This document shows, piece after piece, positions 4,453 through 39,078 of a stretch of DNA of 41,421 nt. The position numbers were made by a program, and so were the translations under genes. Position 1 is the stretch's first letter. Every line of letters starts with the position of its first letter. Origin of the DNA: an uncultured Bacteroidota bacterium. GTDB lineage: Bacteria; Bacteroidota; Rhodothermia; Rhodothermales; UBA10348. The stretch is from positions 1-41,421 of the forward strand of contig CALFHN010000123.1 of NCBI GenBank assembly GCA_937876355.1. Reading direction: 5' to 3'. The notes under the pieces were generated by a model. The model saw only the letters and a program-made list of their open reading frames with translations, was not told where the DNA came from and ran no database searches.

Positions 4453-5544
4453 CTACGCTCCAAGCTGAAAACCAAGCTTCAACTGTTGATCAGGAGGATA
4501 TTCCGAAATACTCCGAAGGCTCGAAATTGTAATTCCGAGAAGCCGAACTGGTTTTGATGGCAAGCCAGGAGCATGGAATAACAATAACGACACAAGTTCA
4601 AAAATTTCTTCTTTTTGAGACACTGGGGTTTCGGTCGTAGTCTGCCTGGTAGTTACTTCAAAATCATTCGTTTTAATTTTTATCGTAACAGTGTATCCAA
4701 TTAAATTGTTGTCCTGCAAGCGTTTAGTAACTTTATCCGCAATCTCTTCAAGCTTCTGAAGAAATGCTCCGGACGTCTCCAAATTGATTTCAAATGTGCG
4801 CTCCGCACCGACCGATTTCCTAGTGCGAAATGTTTGGACGGGCCGATCATCCAAACACCGGACCATGCGAAAGTAATATTGGCCCGATTTTCCGAACATC
4901 GAATTCAGTTCGTTCAATGAATGTCGGGAAAGGTCTGAACCATAGTGAATCCCGTTCCTCTTCATTTTGTCAGCCGTTACTGGTCCCACACCGTAAAATT
5001 TTTCGATTGGAAGTCGAGCTATAAGACCCAATGCCTCGTCGGGCTTGATCACCGTTAGGCCATCGGGCTTATCGTAATCAGAGCCTATTTTTGCCAAAAA
5101 CTTGTTGAATGAAACACCTGCGGAAGCCGTTAACCGAACTTCAGACAAAATTGCTGCCTTTATTTGACGTGCAATCGAGGTTGCCGAGGCAGGACCCATC
5201 TTCGGCTGAGTTACATCCAGATAGGCTTCGTCCATTGATAGCGGCTCAATGATATCGGTATAACGCTGGAAAATGGCTCGGATTTGCCGCGATGCTGCTT
5301 GGTAAGCATCAAATCTAGACGGCACGAAAATAAGTCCCGGGCACTTTTTTGCAGCAAGTGCAGAAGGCATTGCAGAATGAACCCCAAATTTCCGTGCTTC
5401 ATAGCTAGCAGCAGCAACCACCCCGCGTTGTGACGATCCCCCAACGGCTACTGGCCGTCCGCGCAAATGAGGAAAATCTCGCTGTTCGACGGAAGCGAAA
5501 AACGCATCCATATCCACATGGATAATTTTTTTGCCGATGTACAT
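4453..5544 (-). CDS. dinB: DNA polymerase IV (Y-family translesion polymerase)
   Basis: A protein of 363 residues, full length for bacterial Pol IV. The palm carries the catalytic metal-binding residues: D11 in IIHVDMDAFFASVEQRD, and D105-E106 in LSMDEAYLDV. Further family marks are VAAASYEARKFGV in the fingers and the helix-hairpin-helix stretch around FYGVGPVTADKMKRNGI. The little-finger domain follows, and the C-terminus ends with QLKLGF, a sliding-clamp-binding motif like that of E. coli Pol IV. It copies past damaged bases with low fidelity. It is divergent from the lipoprotein gene and has a candidate Bacteroidota promoter directly upstream. I saw no clear LexA box. Confidence 0.95.
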   Translation of the reverse strand: MYIGKKIIHVDMDAFFASVEQRDFPHLRGRPVAVGGSSQRGVVAAASYEARKFGVHSAMPSALAAKKCPGLIFVPSRFDAYQAASRQIRAIFQRYTDIIEPLSMDEAYLDVTQPKMGPASATSIARQIKAAILSEVRLTASAGVSFNKFLAKIGSDYDKPDGLTVIKPDEALGLIARLPIEKFYGVGPVTADKMKRNGIHYGSDLSRHSLNELNSMFGKSGQYYFRMVRCLDDRPVQTFRTRKSVGAERTFEINLETSGAFLQKLEEIADKVTKRLQDNNLIGYTVTIKIKTNDFEVTTRQTTTETPVSQKEEIFELVSLLLFHAPGLPSKPVRLLGITISSLRSISEYPPDQQLKLGFQLGA

Positions 5545-5567
5545 CTAGTAAATAAGTGAATTTATTC

Positions 5568-5597
5568 GAAAGCTAAGAAGGCAGCGGCGTAAAACAA
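5568..5597 (-). promoter_or_regulatory. Candidate Bacteroidota-type promoter for dinB
   Basis: Read on the minus strand, TTG (5597-5595) is followed after 19 bases by TAGCTTTC (5575-5568). Bacteroidota housekeeping promoters have TTTG near -33 and TAnnTTTG near -7 with about this spacing; this site has one mismatch in the -7 element. The dinB ATG lies about 23 bases further on. It is a pattern match only. Confidence 0.35.
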
Positions 5598-5670
5598 GAA
5601 GGGAATTCGTTTCGACTGTTACAATGTGGTGTTATTTGCGCATTTGTTGGACCCGAATTTACGAGCGTCG

Positions 5671-6141
5671 ATGACCTCCCTAAATCCCTCTTTTCATCCA
5701 CGGAATCACGTCAAGATATTTTCGCGAGTACTTTTACTCGCGACCTGTTTACTATTTGTATCGTGCTCACCCGCCATTGCCCCATTTAGTCACGCAGCCT
5801 ACGAGTTAGCCGTCGACCTCAAGGTGGATAGTTTGCGCTTGATGGACTCAGCAGAGCTACCCTATTCCGAATCGAAAAAAAAAGTGGGAAACCTACAGGT
5901 TCGCATGCAAAAAGCGTTTGAATTTGCCTTAGGAAGACCAAAAAACAGTTACTCAACAGAACAGTGGCGAATTATGAATGATTCTGAACGCCATTTGTTA
6001 GGCGGCTTTTTGCGGCGTTGGGAGGAAGAGTCTAGTCTGTCCAGGTCGTTCATCGTCGAAGCAAAAACGATCGTGGCCCACTCTTTTGATGCCATAATCG
6101 GCCTCGAAAGCGGAAAAATAGGAGGTGCCGATGTTAGGTAA
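5671..6141 (+). CDS. Putative lipoprotein of unknown function
   Basis: From ATG 5671 the product has 156 residues: a basic N-terminus, a hydrophobic segment (VLLLATCLLFVSC) and a lipobox-like cysteine, consistent with a lipid-anchored exported protein. The frame extends upstream to GTG 5626, but that adds 15 residues ahead of the signal peptide, so the ATG is preferred. The mature part is helical and charged (AYELAVDLKVDSLRLMD, GNLQVRMQKAFEFALG, LLGGFLRRWEEES) with no family I recognise. Its stop codon overlaps the start of the next gene by about 11 bases, so the two are translationally coupled and probably work together. Confidence 0.6.
   Translation: MTSLNPSFHPRNHVKIFSRVLLLATCLLFVSCSPAIAPFSHAAYELAVDLKVDSLRLMDSAELPYSESKKKVGNLQVRMQKAFEFALGRPKNSYSTEQWRIMNDSERHLLGGFLRRWEEESSLSRSFIVEAKTIVAHSFDAIIGLESGKIGGADVR
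6120..6125 (+). promoter_or_regulatory. Strong Shine-Dalgarno sequence deciding the start at 6131
   Basis: AGGAGG lies five bases before ATG 6131. Most genes in this window have no such motif, so this one is unusual and favours ATG 6131 over the in-frame GTG at 6125. It sits inside the end of the upstream lipoprotein gene, consistent with translational coupling. Confidence 0.65.
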
Positions 6142-6475
6142 CATCAATACGACGACATCATTAGTAGATGATTTTATTCCTCAATTTCTAAACTACTTAA
6201 AGAAGTCTCTCCCTGGGCTTCAGCATGATCTACTTGAGCATGCAGGTCGTATTGTGAAAGATCACGCATCAAGCGTTCAGAAGTGGATCGCCCAATCTTC
6301 AACCGGAGAAATATCTGTTAGCGATCTACGGTGGCTTGTTCAGTCTCAAATGGATCTTTCAAGCCTAAATACCCTAAAGGAAACAGGATTATCACTGGTT
6401 AAATTGGATGAACTTAGGCAGGCTATGGTCTCGTCATTGGTAACCACTATTTTTAAAGTGAACATTTTTAGATAG
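6131..6475 (+). CDS. Hypothetical helical protein coupled to the lipoprotein
   Basis: A protein of 114 residues, largely alpha-helical by composition (LVDDFIPQFLNYLKKSLPGL, LLEHAGRIVKDHASSVQKWI, LDELRQAMVSSLVTTIFK). There is no signal peptide and no cysteine. The start is set by the AGGAGG at 6120-6125. It overlaps the lipoprotein gene by about 11 bases, so the pair is probably made together. I do not recognise the family; it could be a cytoplasmic or periphery-associated partner, but nothing in the sequence shows this. The 125-base gap that follows precedes dnaX and contains a TACCTTG resembling a Bacteroidota -7 element at 6514-6520, with no matching -33 element. Confidence 0.55.
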   Translation: MLGNINTTTSLVDDFIPQFLNYLKKSLPGLQHDLLEHAGRIVKDHASSVQKWIAQSSTGEISVSDLRWLVQSQMDLSSLNTLKETGLSLVKLDELRQAMVSSLVTTIFKVNIFR

Positions 6476-25428: not shown

Positions 25429-25737
25429 TTAGTTGTGCCTTTTTAATAGATCGTCAAGCCATACTTCGGGCATTCCTGTGGAATTGCCCTCGTGGTATAC
25501 ATAGTCGTATTCTTGATCGCCAACCAACACACGGTCTCTTTCTAGATTTCGAATGTCCCGAAATTGGACAACTGTGCGTTTTCCAGCCTTCATTTGTACC
25601 CTTCTCACTAGGTTTGCGTCCTTATACGCAGCCAGAGAACTGTCTGGACGAATAAATTGCAAAGCATAAACGAGTGCCCAAATGAGAACGAAGCCTCCTA
25701 TGGATGCTCCAACAACAATAAAAAACATCTGAAGCAT
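25429..25737 (-). CDS. Small membrane-anchored protein of unknown function
   Basis: From ATG at 25737 the product has 102 residues: a single N-terminal membrane span (MFFIVVGASIGGFVLIWALVYALQFI) and a soluble charged domain with KRTVVQFRDIRNLERDR and DYVYHEG. The frame is open to 26007, but the first ~90 residues of that version include a perfect hairpin translated into Gly/Ala/Pro-rich residues and several AGG, ATA and GGG codons unlike the neighbours, while AGGA lies about 10 bases before the 25737 ATG; the short form is preferred. It follows the oxidase operon on the same strand, but the hairpin at 25948-25986 probably separates it. No family recognised. Confidence 0.55.
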   Translation of the reverse strand: MLQMFFIVVGASIGGFVLIWALVYALQFIRPDSSLAAYKDANLVRRVQMKAGKRTVVQFRDIRNLERDRVLVGDQEYDYVYHEGNSTGMPEVWLDDLLKRHN

Positions 25738-26049
25738 ATCCGCTTTCCTGAGCAGTGGCGTAAGGTTATGAAATGTAGACGCTTTGTAGGGCAAAAGGGT
25801 TACTGAAAACGCCCCCCTTATTAGATTTATTATCACAAACAGTTTAGCCTGGGCCAGCTTGTCCTCGCATCGGCTACCTATGCGCGTTCTTTCGTTTATT
25901 TCTCGCCCGCCGCAGTAAGCCCCAAATGTTAGACAAAGGACCATAAAGAGGAAGGAGGGGCCGGCAAAGCCGGCCCCTCCTTCCTCAAACAAAACGTAAT
26001 CGAACACACCCTACCATTCGCGACGTAACTCAAGCACGAGAAAGGTCCA
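25738..26049 (-). other. 312-base region between the oxidase operon and the small membrane gene
   Basis: If the downstream gene starts at 25737, this stretch is non-coding. It holds the strong hairpin at 25948-25986 and otherwise nothing I recognise. A TACATTTC on the minus strand about 55 bases before the start resembles a Bacteroidota -7 element, but its -33 partner is not at the right spacing. Confidence 0.45.
25948..25986 (-). terminator. Perfect 18-bp GC-rich hairpin ending the ACIII-caa3 operon
   Basis: On the plus strand GAGGAAGGAGGGGCCGGC (25948-25965), AAA, then the exact reverse complement (25969-25986). On the minus strand the stem is followed by TTTATGG, a short U-run. It starts 64 bases after the stop of the last cytochrome oxidase gene, as expected for an intrinsic terminator or a strong 3'-end stabiliser. 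It is by far the most stable local structure I found in the window. Confidence 0.65.
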
Positions 26050-26448
26050 TTATTGGGGTATTTGGTTAAACTCAAGAGCAGCGGCATCTGGTTCACGACT
26101 CTTAAGAGCTTCCTCTTCCAAGGTCTGATCTTGAATGGTCCCCTCAGTCGTATTAGATAGATCCCCTCGGAACAACGTATCCAGAAGCGTAAATGAAATA
26201 AATACAGCTACGAACAATAGGCCAATTCCAAAAATTACGGCATTAACCTTGTTATCCCACTTGAGAGCCATAAATATCACGACAACAAGCGAGGCCTTCG
26301 TAACAGCAATTGCCATTGCGAGGGGAACGTTCAATCCTCCAAGGTCCAATTGGGCCGTTAGCACGGTGGCAACGGTCAAAAAAACCAACCCTCCAAATAC
26401 AATGGAGAGCATTTTAATCGAGGAAATATGATGTTCAGCGTGTGACAT
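26050..26448 (-). CDS. Cytochrome c oxidase subunit IV (COX4/CyoD-like)
   Basis: A protein of 132 residues with three predicted membrane spans (about 14-34, 42-64, 72-92) and a histidine-rich start (MSHAEHHISS). ALAMAIAVTKASLV-type helices with VVIFMALKWDNK match the prokaryotic COX4/CyoD family, a non-catalytic subunit that stabilises the haem-copper oxidase. The polar C-terminal tail (GTIQDQTLEEEALKSREPD) faces a soluble phase. It is the last gene of the oxidase set and is followed by a strong hairpin. Confidence 0.85.
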   Translation of the reverse strand: MSHAEHHISSIKMLSIVFGGLVFLTVATVLTAQLDLGGLNVPLAMAIAVTKASLVVVIFMALKWDNKVNAVIFGIGLLFVAVFISFTLLDTLFRGDLSNTTEGTIQDQTLEEEALKSREPDAAALEFNQIPQ

Positions 26449-26538
26449 CTTTATATCAGTTTTAATCGCGTGAGTCAGTAAAAGTCTGTTACAGTAAGCC
26501 GTTTTGAATAAAATTCAGGTTCGGCTTCCTAGTTATCA

Positions 26539-26580
26539 AGTCAAACTAGTGGTCGAGTCATATTAGTGATCGAGTCTTAG
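26539..26580. repeat. Short imperfect tandem repeat, 17-base period
   Basis: AGTCAAACTAGTGGTCG (26539-26555) and AGTCATATTAGTGATCG (26556-26572) are followed by a partial third copy, AGTCTTAG, reaching the stop codon of the subunit III gene. It lies in the 133-base gap between the subunit III and subunit IV genes, the longest gap inside the oxidase set. Confidence 0.8.
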
Positions 26581-26581
26581 A

Positions 26582-27262
26582 CTAAATCAAATACAAAAGC
26601 GGAAACAGGAAAATCCAAATGATATCCACCAAGTGCCAATACAACCCGCAATTTTCGACCGGGGTGTAATACGCACTAGAAAATTCTCCTTTGAGAGCTC
26701 GGATGGTTATCCAGGTAAATAATCCCATCCCGACAAGAACGTGAAAACCGTGGATACCAGTCATCACGAAATAAATAGAGAAAAACTGGCGTGCGTAAGG
26801 AATATTGTAAAGTGCATAATCTACCCCGTGAGAAACCCCATGAGGATCAAAAGCGGCACCCGGAAAAACACCGTGTTCAAATTTGGCGGTGTACTCGAAA
26901 TATTTAACTACTAGAAAGGTCAGGGCAAACAGAAATGTTAGAATCAGATTGATGACCAATCCCTTCTTATTGTCTTTCTGAGCGTAGTGGATACCCAAGG
27001 CCACGGTAAACGACGATGCCAGCAACACAATAGTATTTAATCCCCCCATGAATGGATCTAGAAGCTCGGCCGAATGGGCAAACACTTCTGGATGCCACGT
27101 TCTGTAAACGATATAAGCGACGAACATCCCGCTAAAAAGCAAGATCTCCGTAACCAAGAACAGCCACATACCCATTTTTGCGGCATCGAACTGCTGTTCC
27201 GATGACACAAAATGATGCTGCAAGTGTGCAGGGTGATCCGAGTGCGCGTTTGCCATAGTCAA
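26582..27262 (-). CDS. ctaE: Cytochrome c oxidase subunit III
   Basis: A protein of 226 residues with five predicted membrane spans, the short form common in caa3-type oxidases. MGMWLFLVTEILLFSGMF is the conserved first helix with its glutamate, MTGIHGFHVLVGMG is the family motif in the fourth span, and YWHLVDIIWIFLFPLLYL closes the protein. Subunit III binds lipid and supports proton uptake and stability of subunit I. The N-terminus is histidine-rich and polar. It lies 38 bases downstream of the subunit I gene. Confidence 0.93.
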   Translation of the reverse strand: MTMANAHSDHPAHLQHHFVSSEQQFDAAKMGMWLFLVTEILLFSGMFVAYIVYRTWHPEVFAHSAELLDPFMGGLNTIVLLASSFTVALGIHYAQKDNKKGLVINLILTFLFALTFLVVKYFEYTAKFEHGVFPGAAFDPHGVSHGVDYALYNIPYARQFFSIYFVMTGIHGFHVLVGMGLFTWITIRALKGEFSSAYYTPVENCGLYWHLVDIIWIFLFPLLYLI

Positions 27263-27273
27263 ATGGTGTATTC

Positions 27274-27292
27274 AGGCCCTAAAAGGCCCTAA
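27274..27292. repeat. Short tandem duplication, 10-base period
   Basis: AGGCCCTAA occurs at 27274-27282 and 27284-27292, in the 38-base gap between the subunit I stop and the subunit III start. Confidence 0.75.
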
Positions 27293-27300
27293 TTTCTAAA

Positions 27301-28953
27301 TTAATGGGTTGAAGTAACAACTTCAGATACTTCCTCTCCTGTCGCAAACAATTCCTTCGCCAAATGGAAGTCGTACGCTCCTCTCGTCACGATCGGAGTT
27401 TCAAGGAAGTTATGTGGATGCGGAGGCGTGGTAGTGTGCGTCCATTCAAGCGTAAGCGCTCCCCAAGGATTGAGACCTGCTTTTTTGCCGTTGATTAGCG
27501 AAGCAAGTAAATACCCCAAAATCAAAAACAAACCAGCAGCCAAGACCCATGATCCATACGTAGAGAGCAAATGATAACCCTGAAATTCAGGTAGGTAGTC
27601 GTAGTAGCGCCGTGGCATACCCTGAGCGCCCATGATGAACTGCGGGAAAAACGTCAGGTTAAACCCAAAGAACACCAAACCAGCTGCGATCTTGCCGAGC
27701 TTTTCATTGAACATTTTACCCGTAATTTTCGGCCACCAATAATGGAGCCCACCAAGAGCGGCTATCACATTACCTCCCATCATCACATAATGGAAGTGAG
27801 CAACGACGAAATACGTGTCATGCAAGTGAATGTCGATGGCGAGTACACCGAGCATAATTCCCGTAAATCCTCCAATCGAGAACGTAAAGAGGAAGGCGAT
27901 GGCGTACAACATTGGCGTCTTGAGTTGGACGCTACCCCTGTACATCGTGGACACCCAGTTAATCACTTTCACACCAGTTGGGATTCCAATCAGATAAGTG
28001 ATTAAGGAGAACACCACTGAAGACGTCGCAGATTGCCCAGACACGAACATATGATGTCCCCAAACCAGGAATCCCAAGAAGGCGATGGCAACAGACGACA
28101 ACGCAACAAATTTATATCCAGAGACCTGGTGCCGAGAAAACGTCCCCATGAGGTCTGAGATTATGCCAAACGCTGGCAAAATCATGATATAAACAGCCGG
28201 ATGGGAATAAAACCAGAAAAAGTGTTGAAACAAGACAGGGTCACCGCCCAGAGCTGGATCAAATATACCAATGTGCATAAACTTCTCGAGGAAGAGTAGG
28301 AGCATGGTAATTCCGATTACCGGCGTGGCCAGCACCTGCACAATTGCAGTAGCATAAATGGACCAGATAAAGAGAGGCAATCTATTCCAAGTGAGCCCCG
28401 GAGCGCGCATTTTGTGGACGGTCACAATGAAGTTCAAACCGGTTAAGATGGATGAGAATCCCATCACAAAGACACCGGTTGTGACAAACAAAATTCCATC
28501 CCCAACACTCGTTGAATACGGAGTGTAAAATGTCCATCCACCATCTATACGACCAACCAATAAAGCAGCCATCGCGATAACCGCACCCAGTACATAAATA
28601 TAGAAGCTCGCCAAATTCAGTCTTGGGAACGCTACGTCCTTCGCCCCAATTTGTAGGGGAAGTACAAAATTACCCATTACAGCAGGTACAGCGGGGATGA
28701 TGAACGTAAAGATCATCAGCACGGCATGAAGCGTAAAAGACTGATTGTAGGCATCAGCGCTCATGATAGTCTCGCCGGGAGCCATCAATTCGATACGGAC
28801 AAGTATCGCTAAGATGCCACCCGCAAGGAATGCCAAGGAGACGGCTATCAAATACATGATGCCGATTCGCTTATGATCAAGCGTCAGTAACCAAGACTTG
28901 ATAGACTTGTCGTGGTTTAGATAGTTGATCGTTCCGGAAGCAGATTCACTCAT
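27301..28953 (-). CDS. ctaD: Cytochrome c oxidase subunit I, A2-type haem-copper oxidase
   Basis: A protein of 550 residues, the oxygen-reducing, proton-pumping core with 12 predicted spans. Haem and copper ligands are visible: H76 (LHAVLM), H251 and Y255 of the active-site crosslink in YSHPAVY (249-255), H300-H301 (WGHHMF), H386 and H388 (AHFHYV). YSHPAVY replaces the GHPEVY motif, so the Glu at the end of the D proton channel is absent and Tyr-Ser is present instead. This marks the A2 subfamily known from Rhodothermus and Thermus caa3 oxidases. PTGVK (326-330) carries the K-channel lysine. The C-terminal tail is hydrophilic. Confidence 0.97.
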
Positions 28954-28987
28954 TTCGATTGAGGGTTAACTCGATATCTGTTATAGA

Positions 28988-29914
28988 CTATTTAAGGGAC
29001 TTGATGTAGGCCACAAGTCCGTCAAGTTGTTTAGGTGTCATGCCGGAATACCCTGCCGGCATGATAGGCTGAAATCCTTCCGCGACTTTAATCGCTGGAT
29101 TCAGGATGGACTCCAGAATAAAATCTTCGTCCACCAGAACTGACGTCCCGTCTGTCAATTTTTGCTGGGTCCCAAATATGCCATTTAGAGCCGGGCCAAT
29201 TTTGGTGGTGCCGTCTACCGCATGACAGAGCGCGCACTGCGCAAACAATTGAGCACCTAGCTCAACAGGTGGAAGGTCTTGGCTTTGTTCGGTAATCCAT
29301 GAAGCAAATTCTTCCTCAGAAACCACAACCACTTTGGCCAACATAGCAGAATGAGCCGTACCACAATATTCTGTGCAGTAAATCTGAAATTCCCCCGTTT
29401 GAGTAGCCTCAAACCACACCGAAGAATACCTGTTTGGCACTAGATCTTGCTTGACCCGAAAAGCGGGAACAAAGAAACTATGCAGCACATCTGAACTACT
29501 CATTACAAGCTTCACCGGCCGACCAACGGGGACATACATCTCCGTAAAGGTAGTCACCCCTTCAGCATATTCGAATTCCCAAGCCCACTGCTTACCGCGA
29601 ACGGTAATTTCGTACGCATCTGGAGGTGCCGTATTCATTCTGAGATATACATCAAATCCCCAAATGAAAACAAACAAAACCAGCAACGTCGGCACAACGA
29701 TCCAAGCAGATTCCAATAGCTTGCTCTCGTGAACCGGATCGGGTACACTTGTTTCGTCCCTTCGTTTGTAACGGAACATGAAGTACAACTTTGCTGCTAC
29801 TACAGCAACAAATAAAACCGTACTAGTCCAAAAAACGAACCAGAACAGGGCATCGACTTCGCCGGCGAACGTCGACATGGCATCTGGTAACCAGAAAACT
29901 CCTTTATCGCCCAT
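28988..29914 (-). CDS. ctaC: Cytochrome c oxidase subunit II fused to cytochrome c (caa3 type)
   Basis: A protein of 308 residues. Two membrane spans (about 24-47 and 69-92) are followed by a periplasmic cupredoxin domain binding CuA: H145, C180, C184, H188 and M191 in YCTEYCGTAHSAM. A class I cytochrome c domain is fused at the C-terminus, with CALCH at 227-231 and a likely axial M285 in PIMPAG. The fusion defines a caa3 oxidase that can take electrons directly from a partner complex, here presumably ACIII. The gene lies between the SCO chaperone and subunit I. Confidence 0.96.
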   Translation of the reverse strand: MGDKGVFWLPDAMSTFAGEVDALFWFVFWTSTVLFVAVVAAKLYFMFRYKRRDETSVPDPVHESKLLESAWIVVPTLLVLFVFIWGFDVYLRMNTAPPDAYEITVRGKQWAWEFEYAEGVTTFTEMYVPVGRPVKLVMSSSDVLHSFFVPAFRVKQDLVPNRYSSVWFEATQTGEFQIYCTEYCGTAHSAMLAKVVVVSEEEFASWITEQSQDLPPVELGAQLFAQCALCHAVDGTTKIGPALNGIFGTQQKLTDGTSVLVDEDFILESILNPAIKVAEGFQPIMPAGYSGMTPKQLDGLVAYIKSLK

Positions 29915-29954: not shown

Positions 29955-30821
29955 TTAAGAATTTAAAATCGATTTATCCAACTTTTGACGTTCCCGTCTC
30001 CAGAAGATAAACAGTCCAAATCCAATCATTAATAGAGTAAACAGACCGCCGATTTTCATCAAATTGGTGGCATGCAGTACATATGAATTAGAATTCGGGT
30101 CGTATCGATAGCAATAAAGTAGAACCTGATCTAATGGCGATCCTACTTTTCCTTCCGATGCTTCCATAATTGCCCGTCGCACATCCGCACTAGGGTAATT
30201 AATTCCATTTAAATATCGTGTTATAAGCCCGTCCCCGCTAACAAAAACCAACGCCGAAGGGTGAGCGAACTCCTGAGTGGATTCAACCCATTTAAACTTG
30301 AATCCTACCGACTCGGTTAGAGCCAGTATGTTTTCCTCGGTTCCAGTGAGGAAATGCCAGCCACTTCGCGCTTCTGGTTTGCCAAGCTTCAGGAGAATTC
30401 TCTCCTTCGTTTGGGCCGCCATTTCAGGCGTTTCGATAGCCGAAAAGCTAATCGTCAACACCCTAAATTCTTGTCCCGGCACCCATGGAATGAGTTTGAG
30501 GGTCTCTGTAATCGATTCTAGCACCACACTGCACAACATAGGACAGTTGTGGTACACAAAATTGATGATTACAGGCGTTTTCCCGTCAAAAAACTCCGCC
30601 AAATGCACACTTTGACCACTTTCGTCTAAAAAAATAGTCTCTAAAGGGATCGATTTACCGAGCATCTCTTCAAGACCGACCCCCCCTAAGGAAGTTGGCA
30701 AAGACCCTGTTTGTGCATTCGCTTGGCTCGCCGAAGCTAAAACCAAAACAATTACGAGCTTACAATATGTTGAGAAAGAACAAATAGAAATAGTGGTGTC
30801 GCCAATTTTACTTTGAAGCAT
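29955..30821 (-). CDS. SCO1/SenC family copper chaperone
   Basis: A protein of 288 residues with an N-terminal signal/anchor (about 21-36), a thioredoxin-fold SCO domain and a C-terminal membrane span (about 254-274) with a basic end. The copper ligands are C93 and C97 in HNCPMLC and H187 in EFAHPSALVF. SCO proteins deliver or reduce copper for the CuA site of subunit II, whose gene follows directly. Its start overlaps the end of the preceding small gene by 14 bases, so the two are translationally coupled. The C-terminal anchor is less usual than a single N-terminal anchor. Confidence 0.92.
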   Translation of the reverse strand: MLQSKIGDTTISICSFSTYCKLVIVLVLASASQANAQTGSLPTSLGGVGLEEMLGKSIPLETIFLDESGQSVHLAEFFDGKTPVIINFVYHNCPMLCSVVLESITETLKLIPWVPGQEFRVLTISFSAIETPEMAAQTKERILLKLGKPEARSGWHFLTGTEENILALTESVGFKFKWVESTQEFAHPSALVFVSGDGLITRYLNGINYPSADVRRAIMEASEGKVGSPLDQVLLYCYRYDPNSNSYVLHATNLMKIGGLFTLLMIGFGLFIFWRRERQKLDKSILNS

Positions 30822-31116
30822 CTAGGGCTTCTAATTCCATGGCGCGCTCAATGGGAATCGTATAACGGCCGGCATCCGCCTTTCCATATCTGGTCAGCTT
30901 TGCCGCCCCCATGATAGCCGTTTCATGCATTGTCGGATAACCAGTGGTCTGGGTAGATTCTACCTTCGCTACTTGAAATTTGTGACCCGCATAGACCATT
31001 CCAATAAGTACCAAAATCACAACAACAGCAGCTGAGACAGCCATACTCCCAAAAATAGTTGGGATGCTGAGTCCTTCAGGTTCTACTCCCATCGAATTTG
31101 AATCGTGTGATGACAT
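30808..31116 (-). CDS. Small single-span protein in the ACIII-caa3 locus
   Basis: A protein of 102 residues with one membrane span (about 23-43, FGSMAVSAAVVVILVLIGMVY), a polar 20-residue N-terminus and a soluble tail containing GYPTMHETAIMGAAKLTRYG. It has no haem motif (no CxxCH), no copper-type cysteines and no match to ActA-F or CtaC-F. It lies between actF and the SCO gene and overlaps the latter by 14 bases, so it is surely co-expressed with the respiratory complexes. It could be an accessory subunit or assembly factor of ACIII or caa3; the sequence alone does not decide. H-E in TMHET are the only obvious potential ligands. Confidence 0.75.
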   Translation of the reverse strand: MSSHDSNSMGVEPEGLSIPTIFGSMAVSAAVVVILVLIGMVYAGHKFQVAKVESTQTTGYPTMHETAIMGAAKLTRYGKADAGRYTIPIERAMELEALDASK

Positions 31117-31182: not shown

Positions 31183-32445
31183 CTACGAATTGGTAAAAGA
31201 CAATGACTTGTGCAAACGAGGATCTCGCTGCGGAACCAGAGCATGTCGACTCAAGCGATACATAAATGCCGCAGAGAAGACCCCAAATAATCCAAACCAA
31301 GCCGAAATGTCATACAGACTCAAAGCGGCATGATCTGCTTCCATCACTGGTTTAATGAGCCAAAACATGTCAAACCACTGCATTCCGAGCATCCAGATGG
31401 CCATAAAGCCCAAAAACGGTAGCCAGCGCTTACCCCATCTACCAATCAGCATGATAAATGGAAACACGAAATGGCCCAGGAGTAGGATGGCTGAATACGT
31501 TCCCCAACCGTGCTCCAGTCTATGACGAAAGAAAATGGTCTCTTCTGGAAGGTTACCGTACCAAATAAGCATGTACTGGCTGAAAGCGATATATGCCCAA
31601 AACACCGTAAAAGCGAACAAAAACTTACCCAAGTCCTGAAAGTGATCCACTTTGATCTCTTTCTTTAACATCCCGTTGTTTCGTAAAACCAACGACACCA
31701 AAATCATAACTGCCATGATGGACATAAACGCCCCACCAAAGAAGTAGACACCAAAAATGGTCGAAAACCAATGTGGATCAAGCGACATCAGTATGTCAAA
31801 GGCTGCAAAAGATGTCACAACGGCTCCAATACCCAGTCCAATAGCCGAATACTTGCGCTGCAGCTTTGGAATCGATGGATCAGGGTCGTTGTCCTGGCGC
31901 ACGCTCAAAGTGTAGAGCTTGAAGGAAATAAAGGTCCAAAAAATAAAATAAAAGGCTACTCGAGCAAGGAAGAACGGCGTGTTCAAATAGCCTTCTTTGT
32001 CGGCTAATATGGGATCGTAATGTTCACTCGTAGGATCAAATAGATCGTGATGCGTCCAGTGATACAAATCGTGCATTCCCAAAAGAATGGGAATCCCTAA
32101 AACTGCCAGTAAAGGAAACGACCAAGTCAACGTTTCAGGAATGCGACGGACAACAACGCTCCAACGAGCCTTTGTCAGATGTTGAATTATGACAAAGAAA
32201 TATGCTCCAACGGTCAGAGAAAGGCAAAACGCCCACCCAATTAAGTAAGAGAAATAGAATTGAGCCGGATTTGTAGCCCAACCGACGGCGCTCACTACGA
32301 GACCGGCAATCCCGATAGCTAACGGTAACATCCAAGCCATTTGAGACCAGGAATACCGATAGGCCGGATCCGCCTGGCTAGCCGTGGATCTCATCGGATC
32401 TATTAGCCAGAATAATGGATTATTTCTTTTAACTGTCTCAGACAT
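31183..32445 (-). CDS. actF: Alternative complex III membrane subunit ActF
   Basis: A protein of 420 residues with about ten predicted membrane spans. It belongs to the ActF family of quinol:electron-acceptor oxidoreductases (ACIII), related in fold to ActC/NrfD-type subunits. Family-like stretches include SWSQMAWMLPLAIGIAG near the start, HDLYHWTHHD on a loop, SLDPHWFSTIFGVYFFGGAF in mid-protein and WYGNLPEETIFFRHR. In ACIII, ActF sits in the membrane alongside ActC and is proposed to help ion translocation. It follows actE by about 50 bases and closes the act gene set. Confidence 0.92.
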   Translation of the reverse strand: MSETVKRNNPLFWLIDPMRSTASQADPAYRYSWSQMAWMLPLAIGIAGLVVSAVGWATNPAQFYFSYLIGWAFCLSLTVGAYFFVIIQHLTKARWSVVVRRIPETLTWSFPLLAVLGIPILLGMHDLYHWTHHDLFDPTSEHYDPILADKEGYLNTPFFLARVAFYFIFWTFISFKLYTLSVRQDNDPDPSIPKLQRKYSAIGLGIGAVVTSFAAFDILMSLDPHWFSTIFGVYFFGGAFMSIMAVMILVSLVLRNNGMLKKEIKVDHFQDLGKFLFAFTVFWAYIAFSQYMLIWYGNLPEETIFFRHRLEHGWGTYSAILLLGHFVFPFIMLIGRWGKRWLPFLGFMAIWMLGMQWFDMFWLIKPVMEADHAALSLYDISAWFGLFGVFSAAFMYRLSRHALVPQRDPRLHKSLSFTNS

Positions 32446-32495: not shown

Positions 32496-33137
32496 TTATC
32501 GTTCATTTTCCGGCACGTCATTGACGTCAGCAAACTGACTTCTCTGAAGTGCTCGCACATAAGCCACGATCGCCCAGCGATCGTGAACTGGAACCTGAGA
32601 TCCATACCCATACATAGTTCTTACGCCGTTAGTTAAAGCGTCGTATAAATAGCCGTCTGGTTGAGATCTCAACATATCGGAATGATACGTGGGGGCTGGT
32701 ACGAAGCCATAACCACCCGTCATTATGATTCCTTTACCATCTCCAGCAAGTCCGTGACAAACACTGCAATAAATCTTGTAGCGATCACGTCCTCGTTCCA
32801 ATAGGTCCAAGGTAACAGGAACCGGAATGCTTGACCAAGCTCCAGATTCGGTTTTACCCGTCCACAGAGCTACGTCATCTTTTAGAAAGCCTCTTGCAAC
32901 GGTGCCATTAACAGGCCTCCGCATAGCTCGACCGTCCGCAAAAAATGGATTCGCTTCCTGCGCCTCGAAGCGCTCTTGTTGGTCCATATTTGGATTGATA
33001 TGGATCGGCGTTTTTTCGGATATCGTACCTTGGCAGCCCGCAAAAACAACGGTTACTACAAGCAACGTCAAAAATCCAATATGCTGAATAATTCGATTCA
33101 TCGGTGTTGATGGCTCATCGGAAGTAGAGGGTTCCAT
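32496..33137 (-). CDS. actE: Alternative complex III monohaem cytochrome c, lipoprotein ActE
   Basis: A protein of 213 residues. A hydrophobic stretch (about 20-33) ends in the lipobox VFAGC (C35), so the mature protein is lipid-anchored on the periplasmic side. A single haem c site, CSVCH, lies at 124-128 with family motifs GDGKGI and YGSQVPVHDRWAIVAYVRAL. ActE carries electrons from the ActA/ActB arm towards the oxidase. ATG at 33101 (residue 13) may be the true start because it sits just before the signal peptide. It starts eight bases after actD. Confidence 0.93.
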   Translation of the reverse strand: MEPSTSDEPSTPMNRIIQHIGFLTLLVVTVVFAGCQGTISEKTPIHINPNMDQQERFEAQEANPFFADGRAMRRPVNGTVARGFLKDDVALWTGKTESGAWSSIPVPVTLDLLERGRDRYKIYCSVCHGLAGDGKGIIMTGGYGFVPAPTYHSDMLRSQPDGYLYDALTNGVRTMYGYGSQVPVHDRWAIVAYVRALQRSQFADVNDVPENER

Positions 33138-33145
33138 ATAAATTA

Positions 33146-33766
33146 TTAGTCCTCCTCTCCGGTATCACGAATGGTTTCAATGTTCTTTCCGCCTAAGTCT
33201 TTCAACAGCTTCCCGGTCGTTTCAAGATTGAACTGCTTGTCACTGGCGGCCACATGCAAAAAGAATGCGTCGTCTGTAACTCGCAAAAAGTTGGACGAAT
33301 AAAACAATGGGTTGTATGGCCGAGGCAGCCCGTTCATCGCAAACATACCTGCAACTGTAGCCAACGACGCAATCAATACAGTCAACTCAAACATGACCGG
33401 TATGGAAGGCTCAATAGCAAAAAATGGCTTGCCGCTAATATTAATAGGGTAACTGACTTCACCCATCCACCACTGCATCCATGTTGCAAGGGTAAGACCG
33501 ACTATCCCGCCTCCAAGTGTAATCCATCCAACGATGGAGTTTCCGAGACCCATGGCTTTATCCATCCCATGAATTGGAAACGGACTGTGTGTATCGAAGT
33601 GCCGATATCCAGCTTCTCGAACAGACTGTGCCGCATGAAGTAATTCACCCGGATGGGCAAACTCAGCCATAACACCGTACACGGCGTCTTCCTGGGCTTC
33701 GTAGATGCCCATGGTAGCTTTTACTTCGCTTGCAATTTGATTCAGCATAATTGCGCTTGCATACAA
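33146..33766 (-). CDS. actD: Alternative complex III subunit ActD (DUF3341)
   Basis: A protein of 206 residues from the upstream ATG; relatives usually begin close to the YGVMAEFAHPGELLHAA segment, so ATG 33712 (residue 19) is a good alternative start. It shows the DUF3341 pattern: an N-terminal soluble domain with AGYRHFDTHSPFPIHGMDKAMG, then two membrane spans (about 74-97 and 127-147) and a soluble C-terminus with DDAFFLHVAASD. ActD is a structural membrane subunit of ACIII without cofactors. It lies 24 bases after actC. Confidence 0.92.
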   Translation of the reverse strand: MYASAIMLNQIASEVKATMGIYEAQEDAVYGVMAEFAHPGELLHAAQSVREAGYRHFDTHSPFPIHGMDKAMGLGNSIVGWITLGGGIVGLTLATWMQWWMGEVSYPINISGKPFFAIEPSIPVMFELTVLIASLATVAGMFAMNGLPRPYNPLFYSSNFLRVTDDAFFLHVAASDKQFNLETTGKLLKDLGGKNIETIRDTGEED

Positions 33767-33790
33767 CGCCTGATTTCAGGCAATTAACGA

Positions 33791-35251
33791 TTAGTGAGCT
33801 GTTTTTTTCTCTGATGTTGCCACATCTAGCGTATGGTCCGCGCCATGCCCATCTCCTTCGTGATCGTAGAAGTGTGGATCGGCCTGCGGCAAAACGCCTT
33901 TTACTTCTGAAACGGCTACCATTGGTAAAAACCGCAAGAACAGAAGGAATAATGTGAAGAATAGTCCGAACGTACCGACAAAAGTCAAAACGTCCACAAA
34001 AGTGGGGGTGTAATAATCCCAAGCACTGGGTAGGTAATCACGGTGAAGCGAAATCACTGTGATGACAAAGCGCTCAAACCACATCCCAACGTTTACAAAA
34101 ATGGAAATCGTAAACATGAATGGGATACTTCGCCGCAATTTTTTAAACCAAAAGAACTGCGGGAAGAACAGGTTGCAAGTCATCATGGTCCAATAAGCCC
34201 ATGCATACGGCCCAAACATGCGGTTGATAAACGCATATTGTTCGTACTGGACGCCTGAGTACCAAGCAATAAAAAATTCGATGATATACGCAAAGCCCAC
34301 CATGGATCCGGTCAACAAAATCACGATGTTCATCTTTTCCAAGTGATCGAGCGTGATGATATTTTCAACCTTGTAGACCTTGCGGGCCACAACCATCAGC
34401 GTCACTACCATCGCAAAACCAGAGAAAATTGCTCCAGCGACGAAGTATGGAGGGAAAATCGTAGTGTGCCAACCCGGTACCACTGACACGGCAAAATCAA
34501 AAGACACGACCGAGTGAACAGAAAGAACTAGGGGCGTACAGAGGGCAGCTAGCAACAAATAAGCTTTTTCGTAATTGCGCCAGTGACGATTTGCACCCGT
34601 CCATCCCATTGCCAATACGCCAAATATTTTGCGCCTAAAGCCGGTCGCGCGGTCACGAAGGGTCGCGAGATCAGGTACCAATCCAACATACCAGAATGCC
34701 GCGGAAACAGTGAAATAAGTCGAAACAGCAAAGACGTCCCACAAAAGTGGACTCTTAAACTGAGGCCACATTCCCATCTGGTTTGGAATGGGAAGCATCC
34801 AATAAGCGGCCCAAACACGTCCAACGTGGATTCCCGGAAAAACCAAAGCACAAATGACCGCAAAAAGTGTCATGGCTTCGGCAGATCGGTTAATGGCCGT
34901 TCTCCATTGTTGCCTAAAGAGGAATAAAATCGCCGAAATAAGCGTCCCAGCATGGCCAATACCAACCCAAAACACGAAGTTAACGATTGCAAAACCCCAT
35001 CCAACTGGGTTATTCAGCCCCCAAACACCCGTCCCGTTCCAGAACAGGTAGGCGATCATGACGATCATCAGCATCAGCCCAGAAAGGGCCAATCCAAATG
35101 CGCCGTACCACGCTAAAGGGGTTTTCTTCTCGGTGTGAGAAGAAACAATCTCAGTTATGTCGTGAAACGTGAGATTCCCTTTTACAAGCGGTGCTTCGTC
35201 GTGGAAGTCTGCTAAATGTGCGAGAGTCTTATCCATGCTAGCCGAACTCAC
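33791..35251 (-). CDS. actC: Alternative complex III quinol-binding membrane subunit ActC (NrfD-like)
   Basis: A protein of 486 residues with about ten predicted spans, the NrfD/PsrC-type integral subunit of ACIII. It docks onto the iron-sulfur part of ActB and is proposed to hold the quinol oxidation site. Recognisable stretches are [72 protein letters not shown] and [16 protein letters not shown] histidine-rich polar C-terminus ([14 protein letters not shown]) lies on the soluble side. It follows actB by 38 bases. Confidence 0.95.
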
Positions 35252-35289
35252 GGGAGCCGATGTGTCGTAAAGTGATTGATAATGATCGA

Positions 35290-38200
35290 TTAGGCGAGAT
35301 TAGGGTTTGGATTCCTAATTCTTCCCAAATAACTGACCCTAGGTTTTACGTTAAGTTCAGCCAACAACTCGTATCTCCTATCAGAAGTACGTTTTTGAGA
35401 AACGGCACTGTTAGGATCTGCGACGTTTCCGAATGTGATGGCATGAGAAGGACAAACCTGCTGACAGGCCGTCACTACTTCTCCATCTTCGATCGGCCGG
35501 CTTTCAAGATTGGCCGTTTTATTCACCTGGCGAACTCTCTGAATACAGAAAGAACATTTTTCCATGACTCCACGAGAGCGAACGGTCACATTTGGATTGT
35601 GGGCCATTTGCACCGTTTCTGGAAGAGTCCTTGTCCAGTTGTAAAAGTTAAATCGACGAACTTTGTAAGGGCAGTTATTTGCACAATACCTCGTTCCAAT
35701 GCATCGATTGTAAATCATTTGATTGGTTCCGTCCGGAGAATGAACCGTTGCAGCAACCGGGCAAACCTGCTCACAAGGAGCGTTTTCACAGTGTTGACAA
35801 GGCAGCGGCTGCATCACCATCTGCGGACTGTCAAATGAAGCTCCATCGCCGCTCACAAAGTAGCGGTCTGTACGAATCCAGTGCAATTCACGCCCGCGAC
35901 TGACTTCATCTTTCCCAACTACTTGAATATTGTTTTCTGATTGGCAAGCCACAACACAAGCACTACAACCAGTACACGTATTCAAATCTATAACCATTCC
36001 CCACTGGTAATCATGGTAATTCGAATTGGTGATCTCAGCTGTTTTGGTAGGATGGCTTTCTTGCCAAAGAGTTGGGTAGTCCGACCAGTCCTCGCGAATA
36101 GGTTTTGGTTCGCCACCCTTCACAAAATTGGGGTTTGCACGGTATTCCGCTACCGTTGCCTGACGAAAAAGGCCACGTTTTTGGACGATTTTTCCTTCTT
36201 CTTCTATTGCGCCGTGGTCCTGCGTCGAAGCAACCATGTACCCTGCACCAGACTTGGTTACAGCGGCTGTCGCAATAGGACCTGCAATCGATCTGACATT
36301 GCTTCCAACGCCTGTTGAAACAGCGCCATTTCCATAGACATCCGTATGTTCGTCACGGTCAAAAAAGTTAGTGGAGCGAATAGCTCGATCACTCAGGATA
36401 TTTCGGCCATAACCAGCGGTAACCTGAATTGAATCTTCAGCCAAACCAGGTTGAATCAAGACAGGAAGGTCTACACTTCCTCCTCCAACTTCGATTTTCA
36501 CCCTGTCCGTAATGTACTTCCCCCCTTCCAACTTATACTGCACGCCCAAATTATCGGCCGTTTTAGGGCTCATTTGGGCAATGTTGTCCCATACAACCTT
36601 TGTTGTCGGATCGGGTAATTCTTGAAGCCAAACAATATTGGCAAAACGGCCATCGAAAACTTTGGTATCCAAACGGGTAACCACTTCGATGCCGCTATGG
36701 GCTGAAACGGAAACGTCGGCCATGGCACTCTGAACGCCAGCCTTAGAAACAGACACGGAAACGGCAGAAAACCCTGGTCCGGCATTAAATCCGTCATGAA
36801 CCACTTTCCGCCACGCTTTTTCAAAGTCGCCAGATAACTGATTCCGCCACGTATCGCGAACCAAATCGTATCCAAACTGCTCTGCTCCCGATCCCAAAAG
36901 TGCGACAATTTCTAGGTTTGAATGAGCAAAATCGTACAAAGGAGCAATTAATGGCTGCACTATTGCGTGCACACCGCCACGACTACGCCCATCTCCCCAC
37001 TCCTCCAAGAAATGTGTTTGAGGAAGGCTCCAAGTGGCCAATTGCGCCGTTTCATCTTGGTGTAGGCTTAGATGAATACGTTCTGCAACCTTTGAGTATA
37101 AATCTGCAAATCCAGGAAAGTCGTAAACCGGATTTACACCCAAAGTGAGAATCAAGTCAACATTTCCTGATGCGATATCAGCATTGACGGCGGCCATTTC
37201 GGCATCAAAATCAACTGCATTGTCCCCAGCGTCCAAATAGTGAACAGTGGTTCCGACGGCGCCAATTGCGGAATTAATTGAAGCTGCAAGTGCATGGACT
37301 CCAGCAGGTTGATTGTCGCCTACTACTACTAAACCGGTCGACCCAGCGCGGGTCAGGTCCGAAGCTATTTCGCCAATCCAAGAGTGGTTTGCATGAACCC
37401 CAGCGTCTCCTTCATACGCTTTCACCGCCTTAGCAAGAGCAGCGGCAAACGAAGCAATTTCTGACGATTTTAAGCGAAGGCGATTGTCCGCCATCCCACC
37501 AGTAATCGAATAACCGCTTTCTATCACATACAAACGACTGACTTCCTGGCTCCCTTCGACATTCCGGCTAGCGGAAAACCCAGTGGCATTGGAAACGCTG
37601 TCTGTGTCTACAGATCCCAAAAAATCCGAATCGAGGCTAACAATAACTTTCGCATCGGAAAAAGAATGAGAGGCCCTTGCGGACGTACCAAAAGCAGCGT
37701 TGATTCCACGCGTTGCCGCGTTTCCTGCTGCCCCTTCATAGGTAACCCATCGAACGGAGGAGAATCGCTCTTCAAAACGACGACGAGCAGCAGCAAATGT
37801 CAATGAAGACGAAGCTTCAGCCAAGACAACAATTTTTGAACTAGCAGACAACTGAGATACAAAAGACTTAAATGATCCCCAATCTGAGTCTACAGTTGAG
37901 TGCGAGATCTTGACCTTGCGGTCTGGGTCGTACATACTCAGGATAGAGGCCTGTTCGAAAAATGAACATGCACCTGAGCTTTCTGGGTGTTCAGCATTTC
38001 CCTCAATTTTACGAGGGCGACCATCAAAACTTTCAACAACAACTGGCCGAAGCGCTCCCCTGAATGGCATTGATGTCGCGTAATAAACGGGAACACCTTC
38101 CACCCGGTCTTCCGGCATGTGGGAAAACGGAACGATCGTTTCAATAGGCTTGCGACAAGCTGTTAAACCTGCCATTGCCATAGAGGCGCCCATCAATTGA

Positions 38201-38376
38201 ATAAATTGACGGCGAGTTGCCCCTTCAGGCGCGTTCGAGGCGCCCGGAATAAACTCCTCACCTGAAACCCGTTGGAATTCCGCCGAATTCTCAAATTGGC
38301 TTACACTGCGCCAGTAGCGTGAGCGAGGAGTTTCCTCGTTGGCAGCAAAAGAATCAATGACTGGAAGCTCGATCAT
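35290..38376 (-). CDS. actB: Alternative complex III iron-sulfur subunit ActB (molybdopterin-oxidoreductase-like fusion)
   Basis: A protein of 1028 residues. A twin-arginine signal ([11 protein letters not shown]55-R56) with a cysteine C74 in LTAC suggests Tat export and a lipobox-like site. The large middle (about 80-780) is a molybdopterin-oxidoreductase-like domain which in ACIII carries no molybdenum cofactor. The C-terminal part (about 795-975) is a ferredoxin-like domain with four cysteine clusters: [37 protein letters not shown], and CSFC with CQQVCP. In the family these bind three [4Fe-4S] and one [3Fe-4S] centre that pass electrons from quinol to the haems of ActA. Confidence 0.96.
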
Positions 38377-38430
38377 AATCTATTTGGTATCGAAACGTGT
38401 TAAACCTTAACTGGTGTTCTTAACGATCGA

Positions 38431-39078
38431 CTAGTAGTGGCAAGCTGAACAGTTAGTGGGTGGCTGAATATCTTCTGAAATAATGCGAGCCAAATTAGTT
38501 GTGAGGAAGTCCTCGGGATAGGCATATCCCATCGTTGTTACCTCACTGTTAGGTCGTAAATACTGTTCCGGATTGCGATGACATTGCAGGCACCAACCCA
38601 TAGCCAAGGGCTCTACCTGCGAAACCACTTCCATTTTATCAATTCTACCATGACAGGATTCACAACCTACACCGTTGTTGGTATGAATTTCATGGCTGAA
38701 ATTGGCATAATCTGGAAGTTTGTGGACCTTAATCCACTCAATGGATTCGTCCATGGCCCAGCTTTCCCGAACCGGAAGCAATTTTAATGACTCCGTTCTG
38801 ATCTGACTATGACAATTCATACAGGTTTGCGTGGCCGGAACGTTCGAGTGACTCGCGTTCTTGACATTGGTATGACAATACTGACAATCCAAGCCAAGCT
38901 GGCCAACGTGGAGACGATGACTATACTCTACTGGCTGAACTGGAGCGTATCCAACGTCCGTGTACTCTGGGGAAAAGAAGTACCAAACAAACAAGATTGC
39001 GAAAACGCCACCGCCAAGGGTAAGCAAAAGAGATAGGGTGGGAAGAGAGTTAATCTTCCTTGAAAAAATTTGCGGCAT
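38431..39078 (-). CDS. actA: Alternative complex III pentahaem cytochrome c ActA
   Basis: A protein of 215 residues with an N-terminal membrane anchor (about 15-35) and a periplasmic domain with exactly five haem c motifs: CQYCH (65-69), CMNCH (86-90), CESCH (139-143), CLQCH (163-167) and CSACH (210-214). Five haems match the Rhodothermus-type ActA. ActA accepts electrons from the ActB iron-sulfur chain and transfers them to ActE or the oxidase cytochrome c domain. It is the first gene of the respiratory operon and needs the cytochrome c maturation system, which is not in the window. Confidence 0.96.
   Translation of the reverse strand: MPQIFSRKINSLPTLSLLLTLGGGVFAILFVWYFFSPEYTDVGYAPVQPVEYSHRLHVGQLGLDCQYCHTNVKNASHSNVPATQTCMNCHSQIRTESLKLLPVRESWAMDESIEWIKVHKLPDYANFSHEIHTNNGVGCESCHGRIDKMEVVSQVEPLAMGWCLQCHRNPEQYLRPNSEVTTMGYAYPEDFLTTNLARIISEDIQPPTNCSACHY

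Follow-up and report, generated by a model that had tools for sequence, protein, structure and literature searches.

The window, a stretch of 41,421 nucleotides from an uncultured Bacteroidota bacterium (class Rhodothermia, order Rhodothermales), encodes on its minus strand the genes of an alternative complex III (ACIII), a SCO-family protein and a caa3-type oxidase (Table 1). Within the act cluster, adjoining actF, lies an open reading frame for 102 residues that has an ATG start and no internal stops. The preliminary description had reported a small single-span ORF between actF and the SCO gene, overlapping the start of the latter by 14 bases, and the ORF coordinates bear out both points. 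In the scan of the window, actF itself is named by none of the Pfam or NCBIfam models. After oxidase subunit IV, the window also contains a 192-residue membrane ORF (25429-26007, minus strand), which has same-place matches in many related clusters and no NCBIfam match.

Table 1. Features of the act and oxidase region, with positions in the window and the evidence for each
Feature	Position	Strand	Evidence
actG, very probably encoding a 102-aa single-span subunit of alternative complex III	30808..31116	-	ORF call, family profile versus 8k9e_G, slot, co-occurrence
Membrane span, residues about 21-41	30994..31056	-	Hydropathy; AlphaFold2 helix 18-58, confident over the span only
GVEPEG acidic stretch, residues 10-15, directly before the span	31072..31089	-	V11, E12 and E14 each conserved in ≥90% of the 22 A1 rows
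GRYTIPIERAMEL signature of the tail, residues 83-95, predicted to form a strand and then a helix	30832..30870	-	I87, P88 and A92 the same in all 22 A1 rows
14 bases shared by the actG end and the SCO start	30808..30821	-	ORF coordinates
actF, upstream neighbour	31183..32445	-	Place within the act cluster; conservation by tblastn
SCO-family gene, downstream neighbour	29955..30821	-	Pfam SCO1-SenC above cut-off
actE, actD, actC, actB, actA	32496..39078	-	Pfam ActD, NrfD, Fer4 and cytochrome families; NCBIfam Qrc-like and Tat-variant models
caa3-type oxidase: subunit II with fused cytochrome c, I, III, IV	26050..29914	-	Pfam COX2, Cytochrom_C, COX1, COX3; NCBIfam caa3_sub_IV above cut-off

Anatomy and conservation of the post-actF protein

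Hydropathy analysis finds a single hydrophobic span (mean Kyte-Doolittle value 2.66) that contains no charged residues, and the sequence as a whole has no cysteine and therefore no CxxCH heme motif; the clear membrane span and the absence of a cofactor motif noted in the preliminary description are both confirmed. In an AlphaFold2 model built from 30 rows (mean pLDDT 70.5), two further helices come after the long span-bearing one, at residues 61-75 and 89-101, with a hairpin (78-80/84-86) between them. A Foldseek search of this model against the PDB returned no matches. Since the tail signature is predicted to form a strand and a helix, it is a plausible candidate for a docking element. Counts of lysine and arginine flanking the span leave the membrane topology unfixed: the C-side is richer in 16 of the 22 rows of alignment A1 and equal to the N-side in 6, and in alignment A3 (n=30) the C-side is richer in 15 rows and the N-side in 6, with 9 equal.

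A family match at E ≤ 0.01 was found in 55 of 60 genomes, a set that includes the window's own. Five close homologues are identical to the window gene in length and start, and pN/pS against it lies between 0.25 and 0.39 in all five comparisons, a range that is only rough because synonymous sites are near saturation. The gene is under purifying selection and is a real conserved gene, beyond chance. Y60, P61, I87, P88 and A92 are invariant in A1, whose 22 rows were drawn from a whole-protein search, and V11, E12, E14, V36, G59, I89 and R91 occur in at least 90% of those rows. Conservation is quoted from A1 because the loci of alignment A2 were collected with a tail-motif pattern, which makes motif invariance there partly a matter of construction. 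The rows of A3 and of A5, the latter comprising a longer form of the protein, were hand-picked.

Assignment to ActG

Searched alone, the window protein matches no Pfam family at E ≤ 1, its best NCBIfam model reaches 15.1 bits against a cut-off of 107, and in the PDB the chain 8k9e_G appears only at E = 1.4, ranked below chance matches. Family profiles return 8k9e_G, deposited as ActG, as their sole significant PDB match. The A1 profile (22 relatives) finds it at E = 4e-5 with nothing else below E = 3, and the A2, A3 and A5 (longer form) profiles at 3.2e-5, 3.2e-4 and 1.8e-6, respectively; the next matches, not significant, are the ActA of 6btm (E = 0.24, A2) and LptG (E = 0.075, A3). The profile alignment covers mainly the tail, about 35-40 residues, and is carried by the stretch GRYTIPIERAMEL. 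The preliminary description had called the protein unnamed and without a match to known Act subunits. Both statements are wrong: the profiles match the ActG chain, and the gene is almost certainly the already described actG. It is also very likely that actG encodes a cofactor-free, single-span accessory subunit of ACIII, clustered with actABCDEF and the caa3 oxidase. Membership of the family, conservation of the slot and co-occurrence with ACIII come from the present analysis; ActG itself is a known but poorly understood optional subunit of ACIII and is not new.

We take chain G of 8k9e, 8k9f, 8x2j and 9ilt to belong to the ACIII of Chloroflexus aurantiacus. The window protein resembles chain G of 8k9e in having a single span, judged by position, and in its tail, which in 8k9e reads LNSYG...IPIDRAMDLIVE. 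It differs in that the 8k9e chain has 112 residues and a GLP tail at its end, as in the proteobacterial form, and in that the 8k9e complex is photosynthetic and comes from an operon without oxidase genes. A cryo-EM structure of the C. aurantiacus ACIII (Xin et al. 2024) is cited in the accessible part of PMC11448878.

A protein of the same name has been described in Rhodothermus marinus. According to the available portion of PMC5928083, peptide mass fingerprinting (mass spectrometry) identified ActG in the ACIII purified from R. marinus, one transmembrane helix is predicted for the protein, none of the density of the complex was assigned to it, and an ACIII-caa3 supercomplex exists in this organism. 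The ActH peptide printed in that portion of PMC5928083 was back-translated and searched in six genomes. It is present in two of them, G028 and G042. The main contig of G042 is presumably the chromosome of the R. marinus type strain. In both genomes the actF-SCO slot holds a 130-residue family member with a span and a VPIDRAM tail, matched by the A2 profile at 7.2e-28 (G042) and 4.4e-27 (G028). The R. marinus protein shares with the window protein its slot, one span and the IPI/VPIDRAM tail, and differs in length (130 versus 102 residues), with about 23% identity between them. From the gene order, we infer that this ORF is the ActG of PMC5928083. The text available from PMC9316378 restricts ActG to C. 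aurantiacus and denies its presence in the ACIII of R. marinus, in conflict with the R. marinus ActG described in PMC5928083 (also seen in part). The present assignment gives a name to an unnamed gene and joins two ‘ActG’ proteins that PMC9316378, in that text, treated as unrelated.

A fusion of ActG into ActA in Bacteroidia was also considered and rejected: the span of 6btm ActA appears only at E = 0.24 in A2 and is absent from the A1 and A3 lists. The tail signature was not seen by eye in six Bacteroidia ActA sequences.

Co-occurrence with ACIII and proposed role

The tail pattern, searched in genome contigs, matched 79 stretches, of which 36 loci were confirmed, several sharing genomes with the 60-genome search. 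actF lies upstream in 34 of these loci and SCO is the next gene in 31; three Salinibacter-type loci (L053, L054, L058) keep ActG with CoxII as the next gene, and SCO was not found in the slot. L062 and L064 (2/36) carry a tail homologue, with act genes absent within the stretch. In each, the tail homologue and its span (5503-6207) stand beside an aminotransferase and a CBS/GCS2 protein. Their genomes (1.8 Mb, hypersaline), which may be incomplete, match the tail profile at 1.9e-8 and 4.6e-7, and ActD was not found in them; both are unexplained exceptions to the pairing of ActG with ACIII.

A search of 296 Bacteroidota genomes (completeness 90% or higher) detected ActD in 219; the A2 profile matched in 82, every one of which belongs to the 219. 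Within the window's class, ActD is present in 74/74 and the ActG profile matches in 72/74, and in Bacteroidota outside this class the counts are 145/222 and 10/222. The best match shares contig and strand with actD, 1.9-3.0 kb downstream of it, in 79 of the 82 genomes; for the remaining three (G035, G037, G240), actD was not among the table entries compared. G240 has ActD on another contig, and its ActG match, weak (E = 3.4e-5) and lacking the tail, is probably false. The two class members with ActD and without ActG (G074, G126) carry a second ActE-like cytochrome after actF. No ActG matches occurred in the Bacteroidia clusters examined. Absence of the gene from all other ACIII loci would have counted against the preliminary description, and the survey of actF-sco synteny gave the opposite result; its proposal of an accessory subunit is supported by the assignment to ActG.

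The family extends beyond Bacteroidota. A longer form in G108 (L095) matches the A2 profile at 7.3e-8 via its tail and, used as a tblastn query, matched 14 plasmid records; P0001 as a single query found no match among the plasmids. Seven of the 14 records were opened (Azospirillum, Mesorhizobium, Aquisphaera, Bradyrhizobium, Nitrobacter, Paludisphaera and Paraburkholderia). In all seven loci, from Alpha-/Betaproteobacteria and Planctomycetota, a family member lies between an ActF-like gene and SCO plus oxidase genes, in act clusters that encode a multiheme cytochrome, an ActB-like protein, NrfD, DUF3341, a cytochrome c and a membrane protein. The Azospirillum locus was read by tblastn, the record being unannotated there, and the six annotated records all label the family member ‘hypothetical protein’. 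These seven proteins share with the window protein a single span, an IPI[DE]xAM-type tail and the slot, and differ in that their linker is longer and has a PxLQ motif and that their tail contains a Trp. When the profile of the longer form was compared with those of A2 and A3, the probabilities were 98.3% and 98.6%, respectively, over about 102 columns comprising span and tail, and ten A5 members matched no Pfam or NCBIfam family at E ≤ 0.01. Relatives in other phyla that are still ‘hypothetical’ could be named by a simple signature, namely a single span followed by IPI[DE]xAM in the post-actF slot.

Published gene orders add Chloroflexota to this list. In the part of PMC3150298 accessible to us, the photosynthetic Cp operon of C. 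aurantiacus is actABCDEFG, without SCO or oxidase genes, the respiratory Cr operon has actG followed by SCO1 and oxidase, and Roseiflexus is without actG. Passages available from two further papers report that an actG homologue was not found in Melioribacter (PMC3534657) and that the ACIII of Nitrospirales is without ActF and ActG (PMC12342949). A literature search covering few subscription papers found none uniting these ActG proteins or describing N-terminal domains. A lineage-specific protein unrelated to ActG, resembling it in the tail by chance, would be compatible with a PDB match of mainly ∼40 residues that is not significant for the single sequence, and membrane spans align easily. However, the slot is shared by Bacteroidota, Proteobacteria and Planctomycetota (and by Chloroflexota according to the literature), the profile-profile probabilities of 98.3-98.6% take in both span and tail, and ActD accompanies the profile match in 82/82 genomes; we consider such a coincidence extremely improbable.

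With the gene read as actG, the helix of its product would lie within or next to the membrane domain of ACIII, and the tail, made up of a helix, a short hairpin and the IPI[DE]RAM strand-helix element, would dock on the ACIII core. Docked in this way, ActG may stabilise the complex while carrying neither electrons nor protons, a role in which we place moderate confidence. The abstract of the structural study of the C. aurantiacus complex reportedly states that ActG contributes to complex stability. Judged from the sequence, catalysis by ActG is unlikely, because the protein lacks a cofactor motif and its span is free of charged residues.

Two other roles would tie the protein to the oxidase genes downstream. 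As a partner of the adjacent SCO protein, it could help caa3 oxidase assembly or copper delivery, which would suit the 14-base overlap and the place of SCO as next gene in 31/36 contig loci and 7/7 opened plasmid loci. However, the window protein has neither cysteine nor a metal-binding motif, L053, L054 and L058 keep ActG with SCO not found in the slot, and four ActD-E-fusion clusters (L108-L111) have SCO without ActG. Moreover, the Chloroflexus Cp operon contains actG without SCO or oxidase (PMC3150298, available part), and ActG was detected in purified R. marinus ACIII (PMC5928083, available part), which makes this helper function very unlikely. A linker joining ACIII and the caa3 oxidase in the supercomplex, and needed solely for that, would agree with the oxidase adjoining ACIII in most ActG-bearing clusters and with the existence of the supercomplex in R. 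marinus (PMC5928083, same portion). Yet the photosynthetic ACIII of Chloroflexus has ActG with the oxidase absent from its operon (PMC3150298, same part), the ACIII-aa3 supercomplex of F. johnsoniae forms with ActA-F only, as given in the accessible text of PMC8552683, and the Bacteroidia clusters examined yielded no ActG match; we therefore judge the linker unlikely. The presence of ActD in all 82 ActG-matching Bacteroidota genomes, the loci without SCO in the slot and the oxidase-free actABCDEFG operon of Chloroflexus (PMC3150298, as excerpted) also leave the ‘assembly factor of the ACIII-caa3 supercomplex’ of the preliminary description unsupported, and a caa3- or SCO-specific role for ActG is not supported. 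Stabilisation of ACIII by ActG remains the favoured reading, and the question is sharpened to the role of an optional Act subunit.

N-terminal modules and other occupants of the post-actF slot

Salinibacter-type members have about 150 extra residues before the span. A Pfam scan of six gave weak matches (fn3, E = 0.091; an Ig-like family, E = 0.0011), but a structural model of one of them, built from 11 rows, finds fibronectin-III domains in the PDB at Foldseek E-values down to 1.3e-5. In L054 (5566-6303), L051, L060, L048, L065, L057 and others, a fibronectin-III-like domain of ∼90 residues precedes the span, with no obvious signal peptide. Balneolia-type members, so named for what appear to be class relatives outside the window's order, have an N-terminal HTH_Tnp_1-like domain: PF01527 matches at E ≤ 0.1 in nine of ten scanned members, hand-picked from 21 read, and is above cut-off in two of the ten. 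A phmmer search with one Balneolia-type form against the PDB returned nothing. An IS3-transposase-type helix-turn-helix (HTH_Tnp_1) is fused before the ActG span in L097 (7732-8247, plus strand), L128, L131, L138, L140, L141 and L144. The window ActG carries neither module. A helix-turn-helix of the type found before the span would be expected in the cytoplasm; this points in the opposite direction from the lysine and arginine counts.

ActG could be one old ACIII family across Chloroflexota, Bacteroidota, Proteobacteria, Planctomycetota and others, in which a conserved span and IPIDRAM docking tail are combined with an N-terminal module that lies on the opposite side of the membrane and can be exchanged (none in the window protein, fibronectin-III in the Salinibacter-type, a transposase-derived helix-turn-helix in the Balneolia-type). 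We offer this wider scheme tentatively and regard it as possible but rather doubtful. If true, the Balneolia-type module would equip a respiratory complex with a domain that binds DNA or protein, and this might connect respiration with a membrane scaffold or the nucleoid. What is less ordinary in the finding is how broad the family is, that databases leave it unnamed, and that its N-terminal domains are apparently exchangeable.

Clusters without ActG differ in what comes after actF. In the Bacteroidia-type clusters L101-L107, L112 and L113, CoxII is the next gene, ActG and SCO both being missing, and ActA has 421-491 residues with an extra N-terminal cytochrome c. In L108-L111, L116, L117, L158 and L159, where ActD is large or a second ActE occurs, actF is followed by the gene for a monoheme membrane cytochrome of ∼300 residues; this cytochrome and ActG look like alternative occupants of the post-actF slot. 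A fusion of ActG with a cytochrome in the slot of the ActD-E-fusion clusters (six proteins with a span, CxxCH and an IPVxxA-like stretch) was rejected as a case of homology, the hhalign probability being 1.0% with A2 and 2.2% with A5. Finally, the actF-SCO slot of L118 (9160-9651) encodes a 164-residue single-span protein that ends in VSVEEAMKAVVEEGLP and is probably a divergent ActG overlooked by the profile.
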